Under the pieces are notes generated by a model that ran no database searches, was not told the origin of the DNA, and was given only the letters and a program-made list of their open reading frames with translations. From positions 1 to 64,000 of the forward strand of contig CAKZLK010000043.1 of NCBI GenBank assembly GCA_937125455.1: a DNA stretch of 64,000 nt, given 5' to 3'. The translations under genes and the position numbers were made by a program. Below, piece by piece: positions 36,453 to 39,164 of the stretch. The DNA is from an uncultured Aequorivita sp. (GTDB lineage Bacteria; Bacteroidota; Bacteroidia; Flavobacteriales; Flavobacteriaceae). Each line of letters begins with the position of its first letter. Within the stretch, counting starts at the first letter, position 1.

Positions 36453-37376
36453 TTAATCTTTCAGGAAGTTTATATTGCGTGTCAATCCAGAAAATTTTGT
36501 GCGTTTCACTGCACTGTTCTTAAATATTTTCTGAAAAACTTCTTCAGTTATTTCTTCCCAATCTTTTTTGGACATTGAAAGCATTTCAGGATTTGGATTA
36601 AAAAGTGGTTCGTTGTGCGGCTTGCTAAAACGGTTCCAAGGACAAACATCTTGACAAATATCACAACCGAACATCCAATCTTCAAAATTACCTTTTTGAG
36701 ATGTAGGGATTTCGTTCTTCAATTCGATGGTAAAATAGGAAATACATTTGCTACCATCCACCACTTTGTCAGCAACAATTGCATTGGTAGGACAAGCGTC
36801 TATACAGGCAGTGCAACTTCCGCAATGGTCTGTTACTGGTGCATCATACTCCAAATCTAAATCAACGATTAATTCCGCAATAAAATAGAAAGAACCCAAT
36901 TGCTTTGTGAGTAAATTGCTGTGCTTGCCAATCCATCCCAAACCGCTCTTTGCGGCCCAAGCCTTGTCTAAAACCGGTGCGGAATCTACAAATGCCCGGC
37001 CGTGCACATCGCCAATTTCTTCGGAAATAAAATCCATTAATTGTCTCAGTTTTTCTTTTATGACGAAATGATAATCGGCGCCATAAGCATATTTTGAAAT
37101 TTTATAGGTTTGTGAAGTTTGCATTTCTGAAGGGAAATAATTCAGCAATAAAGAAATAACACTTTTGGAATCGGGGACAAGTTTTGTTGGGTCCAACCTT
37201 TTGTCAAAATGGTTTTCCATATAGGCCATTTCACCGTGCATATTATTCTTGAGCCAGTTTTCGAGACGCGGTGCTTCTTGCTCCAGAAATTCAGCTTTGC
37301 TTATTCCGCAGGAAATAAAACCAAGTCGTTTTGCTTCGGTTTTTATCAAGGTTGTATTACTTTCTTTTAAAATCAA
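36453..37376 (-). CDS. queG: Epoxyqueuosine reductase QueG
   Basis: QueG reduces epoxyqueuosine to queuosine in tRNA, using cobalamin and Fe-S clusters. The 307-residue protein has the cobalamin/active-site segment [27 protein letters not shown] with D131. Two 4Fe-4S motifs follow: [11 protein letters not shown] (C185, C188, C191, C195, with P196) and [10 protein letters not shown] (C238, C241, C245). It is shorter than forms that carry C-terminal HEAT repeats, so it is the short type. It shares a strand with the P450 and ruvB, from which the nuclease cassette separates it. Confidence 0.95.
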
Positions 37377-37390
37377 AATTTAATAATTAG

Positions 37391-37416
37391 TGTCACGCTG
37401 AGCGCAGTCGAAGCGC
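37391..37416 (+). repeat. Left terminal inverted repeat of the GIY-YIG cassette
   Basis: 26 bp beginning TGTCA, then C, GCTGAGCGCAGTCGAAGC, then GC. It matches the reverse complement of 37774-37799 at 24 of 26 positions. The inner part can fold (AGCGC paired with GCGCT around a 7-base loop). It abuts the nuclease stop codon at 37417. Confidence 0.9.
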
Positions 37417-37767
37417 TTAATTATTCTTTACATTCTTACTATTTGGATTATACTTAAAATGTGTAGCATTTCTACATTCAGACAATATTTGTAGCATTTC
37501 TCCTTCCCCATCAATCAATGCTTGTTTTTTTGCTTTGGTCCAACCTTTAATTTTCTTCTCAAAATAAATTGCTTGTAATACATCGTTGAATTCTTCATGA
37601 AATTTTAATTCCAAAGGCCTCCTTTTATAAGTATAACAATTTTTATTTAATCCATGTTGATGTTGGTCAAATCTTGTTGAGAGATCATTTGTTATTCCTG
37701 TGTAGAATGAATTATCTGAGCATTTTAAAATATAAACAAAGTAGCTGTAATAAATCATGATTCTCAT
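37417..37767 (-). CDS. GIY-YIG nuclease domain protein
   Basis: A 116-residue single-domain GIY-YIG protein. The first motif is FVYILKCSDNSFYTGITND (Y-I and Y-T-G). The catalytic arginine is in LSTRFDQHQHG. Then come KRRPLELKFHEEF and the glutamate in AIYFEKKIKGWTKAKKQALI, which matches the metal-binding Glu of the UPF0213/YhbQ-like group. It has no extra DNA-binding domain. Translation may begin at 37758 (MIYYSYFVYILK) rather than 37767. Small relatives cut DNA, and their cellular role is unsettled. The surrounding inverted repeats make it a candidate for moving or maintaining the element. Confidence 0.88.
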   Translation of the reverse strand: MRIMIYYSYFVYILKCSDNSFYTGITNDLSTRFDQHQHGLNKNCYTYKRRPLELKFHEEFNDVLQAIYFEKKIKGWTKAKKQALIDGEGEMLQILSECRNATHFKYNPNSKNVKNN

Positions 37768-37773
37768 TCATTA

Positions 37774-37799
37774 GGGCTTCGACTGCGCTCAGCCTGACA
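37774..37799 (-). repeat. Right terminal inverted repeat of the GIY-YIG cassette
   Basis: On the minus strand this reads TGTCA, then G, GCTGAGCGCAGTCGAAGC, then CC: 24 of 26 positions match the left copy at 37391-37416. It lies 6 bp upstream of the nuclease ATG at 37767 and ends 27 bp before the P450 stop codon. Confidence 0.9.
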
Positions 37800-37826: not shown

Positions 37827-39164
37827 TTAGATTACTCGATCTACAAATTTCAATATAGCATTTCTTGGTTTAAGTGTAATCAATGGCTTGATTTCAATTG
37901 GTGTTTTCTTTTCAGAAATTTTATATTTCCGCATAATTTCTGCAATGGCCAAAACCATTTCATACATCGCAAAATTATTGCCAATGCACATTCTAGGCCC
38001 GGCGCCGAATGGAAAGTATTGTCCAGAAAAATGATTGGGATTAACCTCTGAGAAACGTTTGGGCTTAAACTTTTGCGGTTCGTCCCAGTTTTCAGGGTTG
38101 GTATGAATTTCCAACAAGGAAAACAGCAAACTTGAATTTTTCGGAATTTTCATTCCATTAAATTCATCTTCCTCAATATTCACACGATCAATAAAATAGG
38201 CTGGAGGATACAAACGAAGCGATTCTTCAATAACGTTTTTAGTGAAAGGACAATTTTTTATAAAGTCCATCAAAGTTTTTGAACTCTCCTTTGCTTCAAT
38301 TATTTCAGCATAAAGTTCTTCTTGAATTATAGGATTTCGGGCTAGCAACTCGCAGGTAAAAGTCAGTGCGTTTGATGTGGTTTCGTGACCTGCCGTAAAA
38401 AGAATTAAAATTTCGTCAATCAACTGACCTTCTTCCATAGCGTTACCATCTTCATAACGCGCATCCAAAAGCATATCTAATAAATCATCTTCACGTTTTC
38501 CAGAATTTCTTCTTTTTTTTACAAGTCTTTTTAAAATTGTACGAGCCTCCTCAGTTTCTGAAATGTGTTTATTTATTTGTCCGCTTAATTTAAACCACCA
38601 TCCCAAATAGGGTTGACGCAACTCTTTCACCAACATTTGCTGCGCAGATTCAGTTATTTGCTGAAGTTTGTTTATTTCCTTTTGATCAACCGCACTACTG
38701 AAAAGTGATTTCACAACGGTTTGAAAAGCCAAATCATTAAAAACAGGAAAAATATCTATTGGCTTATCTGTTTCAATTTTCACCAGTTCTGTTTTAATAG
38801 CTGCATCAATTGTGTCCAATAGGTTTATCAATTGCTTTTTATGAAAAGCCGGCTGAATAAGTTTACGTTGTTTTTGCCAAAGTTCTCCTTCAGAAGTCAA
38901 CAATCCAAAACCTACGTATTTTGAAAGATCTCTTGTTTGGATTGGTGATTTTTTATAATTCCTATGATTTTTTTGTAATGCATATTGCGCAAAACCAGCA
39001 TTACGAGAAAAAATAACTGAATTTCCAAAACCTAATTTTAAACGAAAGGTATCGCCTTTGGCTTCAAAGTTTTTATGGTGAAAAGGCAATGGATTTTTAA
39101 GGATCTGGGCTGAATGCACCAAAAACCGGAAGGCAGAAACCGATGGGATTTTCTTTGCTTCCAT
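37827..39164 (-). CDS. Cytochrome P450
   Basis: A 445-residue P450 with the I-helix AGHETTSNAL, the ExxR motif in EESLRLYPPAYFIDR, a PERF-like KPKRFSE and the heme loop FGAGPRMCIGNNFA with the axial cysteine at residue 393. It has no membrane anchor or fused reductase, so it is probably soluble and uses separate ferredoxin partners. The overall pattern is closer to the CYP4/CYP102-like group than to camphor-type P450s. The substrate is unknown; a fatty acid or terpenoid is a guess from family. It lies 11 bp downstream of ruvB and is probably co-transcribed. Confidence 0.92.
   Translation of the reverse strand: MEAKKIPSVSAFRFLVHSAQILKNPLPFHHKNFEAKGDTFRLKLGFGNSVIFSRNAGFAQYALQKNHRNYKKSPIQTRDLSKYVGFGLLTSEGELWQKQRKLIQPAFHKKQLINLLDTIDAAIKTELVKIETDKPIDIFPVFNDLAFQTVVKSLFSSAVDQKEINKLQQITESAQQMLVKELRQPYLGWWFKLSGQINKHISETEEARTILKRLVKKRRNSGKREDDLLDMLLDARYEDGNAMEEGQLIDEILILFTAGHETTSNALTFTCELLARNPIIQEELYAEIIEAKESSKTLMDFIKNCPFTKNVIEESLRLYPPAYFIDRVNIEEDEFNGMKIPKNSSLLFSLLEIHTNPENWDEPQKFKPKRFSEVNPNHFSGQYFPFGAGPRMCIGNNFAMYEMVLAIAEIMRKYKISEKKTPIEIKPLITLKPRNAILKFVDRVI

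Follow-up and report, generated by a model that had tools for sequence, protein, structure and literature searches.

The window, that is the whole 64-kb stretch of DNA that was analysed, comes from an uncultured Aequorivita sp. (contig CAKZLK010000043.1) whose own genome amounts to 3.73 Mb in 63 contigs. At 37391–37799 it carries a cassette of 409 bp, in which a GIY-YIG gene lies between outward-facing hairpin repeats tagged with TGTC (Table 1). The two inverted arms are 27 nt long and 93% complementary, with TGTCA at both outer ends. The last base of one arm falls within the stop codon of the GIY-YIG ORF (37417–37419), and a gap of 5 nt is left between the first ATG of this ORF and the other arm. 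The ORFs on either side of the cassette share one strand. The boundaries and the inverted repeats had been proposed in the initial annotation, as had a nuclease frame that fills the interior with its stop codon at one repeat, and both points are borne out, the latter by the 1-base overlap and the 5-nt gap. The annotation had also held the layout to be improbable by chance. A chance origin is indeed ruled out: the 16-nt core, at up to 2 mismatches, occurs only twice in the window where 0.04 matches are expected, and shifted-window controls in relatives (see below) agree.

Table 1. Positions of the cassette features and of the adjoining genes in the window
Feature	Position	Strand	Details
queG (name from the initial annotation), downstream neighbour, insertion context	36453–37376	−	ORF; orthologue search
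REP copy on the 3′ side of the gene	37391–37417	+	TGTC tag 37391–37394; 4-bp stem CGCT/AGCG; 12-nt loop GAGCGCAGTCGA
Stand-alone GIY-YIG endonuclease, 116 aa	37417–37767	−	ORF; Y12, Y22, R32, H36 and E70 conserved among relatives
Inverted REP copy on the upstream side of the gene, tag facing outward	37773–37799	−	TGTCA; 4-bp stem GGCT/AGCC; loop as in the other copy
Cytochrome P450 (name from the initial annotation), upstream neighbour	37827–39164	−	ORF; adjoins queG in 13 other same-genus genomes

The protein matches Pfam PF01541 (GIY-YIG) with an E-value of 2.7e-17 and 63.3 bits against a cut-off of 22.6; no domain beyond GIY-YIG was detected in Pfam, and no family was assigned by NCBIfam. 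The five residues listed in Table 1 are invariant across a 13-row alignment of relatives, and invariant or at least 90% conserved in one of 38 rows. By its domain and the conserved catalytic Y, Y, R and E, the protein belongs to the GIY-YIG nuclease superfamily. An AlphaFold2 model from the 38-row alignment has the GIY-YIG fold with a mean pLDDT of 83. Foldseek searches with this model returned UPF0213 proteins first (E 2.4e-5 and 6.1e-4), followed by Slx1, a structure-selective nuclease (E about 0.004–0.02). The small UPF0213 proteins (1zg2, 1ywl) are the nearest solved structures by sequence as well as by fold. At least nine relatives are interrupted, with a short frame at the match (L055, L061, L073, L076, L079, L087, L095, L099 and L141), as expected for a decaying mobile gene. 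Three further matches (L084, L091, G253:C42) lie within open frames of about 400–1000 aa and are possible fusions. Close relatives at 73 and 72% identity also appear in MAG records labelled Rhodobacteraceae and Saprospiraceae (L165, L168), by contamination or by transfer.

The repeat family and its pairing with GIY-YIG genes

The own genome holds 29 places that match CTGAGCGNAGTCGAAG with at most 1 mismatch, against 0 for the reversed control pattern, and a wider repeat pattern yields 38 copies. Many of these copies read as TGTCA, stem, GAGCGCAGTCGA, stem, and their flanks change together (acc/ggt, aca/tgt, agg/ccc, agt/acc, acg/cgc). Across 170 distinct copies, stem positions 1–4 are Watson-Crick paired in 96, 98, 95 and 91%, compared with 50, 41, 32 and 39% after shuffling, and each of these positions is occupied by 2–4 pair types; from position 5 outward pairing falls to chance. 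The tag bases T, G, T and C are present in 135, 131, 143 and 138 of the 170 copies. Among the 140 copies with a tag and a perfect stem, the loop varies freely only at its sixth base, the N of GCGNAG, where 33 substitutions were counted against 0–6 at each other base. The loop, divided as GA-GC-GNA-G-T-C-GA, would be compatible with a GNA triloop closed by a C-G pair and flanked by G-A pairs; DNA mini-hairpins with GNA loops and tandem G-A pairs are very stable. Four repeats folded with standard DNA energies were no more stable than their shuffles, so that the support for the hairpin comes from covariation. Such a structure suggests that the repeat may be recognised as single-stranded DNA.

The examined loci, a non-random sample, contain 43 distinct outward pairs of REPs within 130 nt. 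Adjacent copies are arranged outward in 43 cases, inward in 38 and directly in 23, the outward arrangement being only slightly the commoner. At one locus (L253, G360:C1) at least eight repeat pairs of 83–110 nt, alike in sequence, stand beside a GIY-YIG gene. Seven GIY-YIG genes are present in the own genome, and the core (up to 3 mismatches) occurs within the locus of the window gene only; the gene on contig C18 (L161) has repeats of a related type, TGTCA..CTGAGCTTGTC, on its flanks. Copies of the TCGAG type occur in the same genome, yet a gene of that type was not found there.

Homologues at E ≤ 1e-10 are present in 48 of 120 same-family genomes, the own genome included, and in the genus a GIY-YIG homologue occurs in 24 of 28 genomes. 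Many of the relatives are likewise framed by repeats. Among the loci listed the types are CTGAG..CGAAG, TCGAG..CGAGA, CCGAG..CGAGG and CTGAGCYTGTCGAAG, besides a long-stemmed type ending in TATCGAGAA and ATTC..GAAT types. Relatives of a subgroup with the motif MKGYVY (L160, L148) are flanked by GGTGGCTGAGCGGAGYCGAAGCC repeats that lack the TGTC tag. In the combined family and genus set (98 unique genes, 91 with full flanks), an inverted repeat scoring at least 12 spans 53 of the 91 genes, as opposed to 10 of 350 control windows displaced along these loci. When flanks of different genes were mispaired, the same score was reached in 64 of 455 cases, because repeat types are common to different genes.

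A set of 80 named loci, mostly of Flavobacteriaceae going by their record titles, left 75 usable after 5 at contig ends were set aside; the tagged-repeat motif applied to them was derived from the earlier relative set. A tagged repeat lies within 250 nt of the gene in 71 of the 75, compared with 6 of 294 shifted windows. Outward tagged repeats on both sides occur in 38 loci and in 0 of 294 shifted windows, which leaves 37 of the 75 without the two-sided arrangement. Inverted repeats scoring at least 14 were found at 49/75 loci versus 0/443 controls, and those scoring at least 12 at 51/75 versus 12/443. We regard gene and repeat as securely paired.

Repeat type also follows the protein. On a tree of 171 relatives, of which 140 were typed into eight states and 31 had no type, repeat type changes 19 times, while 300 shuffles gave a mean of 76 and a minimum of 67; the tree is built on few columns, and near-copies inflate this clustering. 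The two main types alone need 4 changes against 30 when shuffled. In two genomes, two gene types coexist, each with its own repeat (L135 and L158 in G134; L136 and L157 in G140). Residues 20, 21, 45, 75, 78 and 85 are linked to type in a comparison of 41 with 50 sequences. The copy number follows the gene as well: at least 5 copies of the pattern YYGAGCGNAGTCGARR occur in 18/18 genomes with a close homologue (E < 1e-30), in 18/30 with a weaker one and in 13/72 without a homologue at 1e-10. One genome whose gene scores exactly 1.0e-30 (G075), and which falls in the middle class, has only 2 copies. Within genomes the match between gene type and copy type is modest and weaker than on the tree: 71 of 140 copies are of CT type in the four genomes with only a CT/AG gene, and 41 of 186 in the ten with only TC/GA (p 0.025), with G083 running contrary.

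Tagged hairpins beyond the flavobacteria

A search with a related protein (L102) retrieved 32 records of the plasmid collection, including megaplasmids and two 2.17-Mb records of Neisseria gonorrhoeae, the relative in Neisseria having 36% identity to the query. These two records (L362, L383) are filed as plasmids in PLSDB and are, judging by their size, probably chromosomes. Nineteen distant loci were read, 18 from the 32 records and one from the 36 of another search, and hairpins tagged with CGTC or TGTC were counted when their stem had 7 bp or more. Such a hairpin lies on some side of the gene in 14/19 loci, on both sides in 12/19 and outward on both in 11/19, whereas 74 shifted windows gave 12, 3 and 1. 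The fraction of 12/19 is biased upward, because 9 of the 14 unfetched records share the identity value of two repeat-less Rhizobium/Sinorhizobium loci. The 12 two-sided loci belong to alphaproteobacteria and Neisseria, namely to Neisseria (2), Novosphingobium, Azospirillum, Sinorhizobium meliloti, Rhizobium, Neorhizobium, Shinella (3) and Sphingobium (2), and since genera recur they amount to fewer than 12 independent cases. Two loci have the hairpin on one side only, and five have none (Spirosoma, Planktothrix, R. tumorigenes, Sinorhizobium C101 and Methylobacterium). On the Planktothrix plasmid (L369), a type IIL restriction gene and the DISARM gene drmA stand on either side of the GIY-YIG gene, which has TGTCATTCTGAG-type repeats close by.

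For instance, a 29-bp repeat pair without a mismatch surrounds the GIY-YIG gene on pNL2 of Novosphingobium aromaticivorans, and on p3 of Azospirillum lipoferum (L364) CGTC hairpins enclose a GIY-YIG gene that is located between sufB and sufC. Repeats of the form CGTCATTCCC..GGGAAT, in our reading dRS3, surround the Neisseria relative. The initial annotation had asked whether the repeat exists elsewhere and is tied to GIY-YIG genes; with 29 copies in the own genome, and with the pairing extending over genera and to other phyla, it does and is. Both N. aromaticivorans and A. lipoferum are named by Di Nocera et al. 2013 (PMC3733652) in their account of REPs tagged with CGTC, which include dRS3, RPE-4 and RPE-6 and are spread over five phyla; these REPs are reported there to lack a dedicated enzyme. 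The window repeat shares with these REPs a CGTC or TGTC tag and the arrangement in inverted pairs, and hairpins of this kind enclose distant relatives of the window gene. It differs in its 4-bp covarying stem and 12-nt loop, where the same source gives stems of 8–9 bp and loops of 4–5 nt.

Sites with and without the unit

queG is matched in 27 of 28 same-genus genomes. In 13 others of the genus it adjoins the P450 gene without a cassette. Estimated from tblastn ends, the two genes are −1 to 5 nt apart in 12 of these genomes and 41 nt apart in the thirteenth, compared with 454 nt here; in another 13 the P450 gene is absent from the queG locus. No GIY-YIG gene was found near queG at 26 other same-genus queG loci, and 23 other genomes of the genus carry GIY-YIG genes elsewhere. 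The spacing between queG and P450 is thus short otherwise, as had been supposed, and the comparison of this spacer in relatives, suggested in the initial annotation as a check for an empty site, yields 13 cassette-free congeners with a junction that is not base-exact because the flanks have diverged.

Two further sites were compared. At the first, between an ALDH and an SDR gene, the dehydrogenase lies just upstream in 50 of the 55 loci read, and by our reading the site is part of a kynurenine-pathway cluster. Gene-less repeat pairs of one type occupy it in G000, G139, G138 and G125, and pairs of another type in G137, G135, G131, G143 and G063. In G005 a cassette lies just upstream of the SDR gene; the cassette of G083 is accompanied by further sequence, and that of G091 is interrupted. 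No cassette is present in the remaining loci, whose spacers measure 5 to about 1,300 nt and in some cases contain incomplete or degenerate repeats. A spot that hosts pairs of two families or a cassette (L277–L331) is possibly an insertion hotspot. At the second site, between kmo and a RidA-like gene, only 10–11 nt lie between stop and ATG in G125, G027, G137 and G140. One pair type is found there in G000, G144 and G129, another in G139 and G130, and other inserts in further relatives. Matches to the kmo-RidA pair, with 91 and 77% identity, occur elsewhere in the own genome, and the unit is also found in several places in congeners. These gene-less units are inverted REP pairs with a short spacer that are dispersed as a whole, as REPINs are. 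A target duplication or a clean junction was sought at queG-P450, ALDH-SDR and kmo-RidA; no duplication was found and none of the junctions was base-exact, filled and empty sites differing by roughly 8–40 nt beyond the unit.

A GIY-YIG nuclease as the proposed enzyme of a REP system

Two known systems bear on the interpretation. RAYT genes with their REPs and REPINs (REPtrons) likewise consist of a single gene between tagged palindromes, with intergenic location, inverted pairs as units and a tie between repeat type and enzyme. In the cassette, too, inverted and tagged REPs of a genome-dispersed type flank the gene, whereas the enzyme is a GIY-YIG protein instead of an HUH/Y1 tyrosine transposase and the tag is TGTC or CGTC instead of GTAG. 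The other is the Ssn (site-specific single-stranded nuclease) family, reported in 2025, which is said to comprise GIY-YIG nucleases specific for single-stranded DNA with repeated genomic targets (SsnA/NTS of Neisseria). The likeness lies in a stand-alone GIY-YIG protein, in a putative target present in many genomic copies (29 here) and in the Neisseria relative among dRS3-like repeats. What sets the window apart is that the gene is tightly enclosed by inverted copies of its putative target, that congeners lack the cassette at this place and that gene-less pairs exist elsewhere; together these suggest a mobile unit. The initial annotation knew of no described mechanism, and in view of Ssn this may be partly out of date. 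The enzyme side appears to be of a kind already known through Ssn; the anatomy of cassette and REPIN, the code that relates repeat type to protein and the connection with CGTC REPs are added here. Among the papers listed in literature searches, no title pointed to a pairing of GIY-YIG with REP, REPIN, RAYT, miniature inverted-repeat or dRS3, and six core strings were unmatched; the MITE of PMC9769881 is unrelated to the window repeat.

With moderate confidence, we regard the cassette as a REP/REPIN system in which a nuclease of what seems to be the Ssn type, probably acting on single strands, is combined with its own targets, in analogy to RAYT. The nuclease would recognise the TGTC-tagged hairpin in single-stranded DNA and nick at or near the tag, so that two inverted copies delimit a unit. 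Units with the gene, of 409 bp here, would be autonomous, and those without it, of about 60–110 nt, non-autonomous in the manner of REPINs. Nicked or excised single-stranded units would most likely be inserted at other short intergenic spots and scatter the repeats, probably during replication or natural transformation. Cassettes and repeat pairs may later be lost or decay. We infer the binding, the specificity for single strands, the position of the nick and an enzyme, not a host process, that moves the unit; its movement by the enzyme is the best reading, an unproven one. The initial annotation had pictured a minimal selfish or domesticated element, akin to REP/RAYT with a different enzyme, and the dispersed repeat, its tie to the gene and the cassette-free sites support this picture.

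Alternatively, the nuclease may be a genome guardian of the Ssn type, which cuts incoming or replicating single-stranded DNA at the repeats and tunes natural transformation, the repeats being marks that spread by other means. The repeated target reported for SsnA and the Neisseria relative among dRS3-like repeats would fit a guardian. Nevertheless, GIY-YIG genes that are missing from the 26 other queG loci of the genus and present elsewhere in 23 genomes are difficult to accommodate, and gene-less pairs, as mobile units would, recur whole at several loci and are missing from orthologous sites; we consider the guardian unlikely, if still the most serious competitor. A homing endonuclease gene that spreads by double-strand break repair, with the repeats as its cut site or a by-product, is brought to mind by the classical homing enzymes of the GIY-YIG superfamily. 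Homing enzymes cut the empty site, however, and that site is repeat-free at kmo-RidA, whereas the repeats belong to the unit, at either end of it, and gene-less pairs of them exist as well; Pfam, moreover, finds the GIY-YIG domain only. Homing is accordingly improbable.

Even less can be said for mobilisation of the repeats by a RAYT or another Y1 transposase with the GIY-YIG gene as a passenger. The own genome does contain three Y1_Tnp matches, one close to the cut-off, but the repeat core is found at none of the three loci (about 1.5 kb per side where the contig allows), and repeat type follows the GIY-YIG tree; this explanation is very improbable. That the repeats are mere terminators or mRNA stabilisers, flanking a small gene by accident, is scarcely credible. 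A role of REPs at the RNA level has been suggested (PMC3733652), yet an accident would not produce the pairing of 71/75 against 6/294, nor would terminators have a reason to follow the protein tree in their type.

A cassette of the REP/REPIN kind with its own nuclease leads to a broader proposition, which we hold to be evenly balanced. GIY-YIG nucleases may form a second, independent class of REP enzymes in several phyla, in which each lineage drives its own tagged hairpins and REPIN-like units, the CGTC superfamily included, and in which protein and hairpin stem would diverge together by a readable recognition code for which the six type-linked residues named above are candidate positions. 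Di Nocera et al. 2013 (PMC3733652) left open which enzyme serves the CGTC-tagged REPs, and the pairing described here makes this question directly testable. If the proposition is true, REPIN biology would gain a second enzyme of a different chemistry, together with a natural set of nucleases for single-stranded DNA hairpins that differ in specificity.
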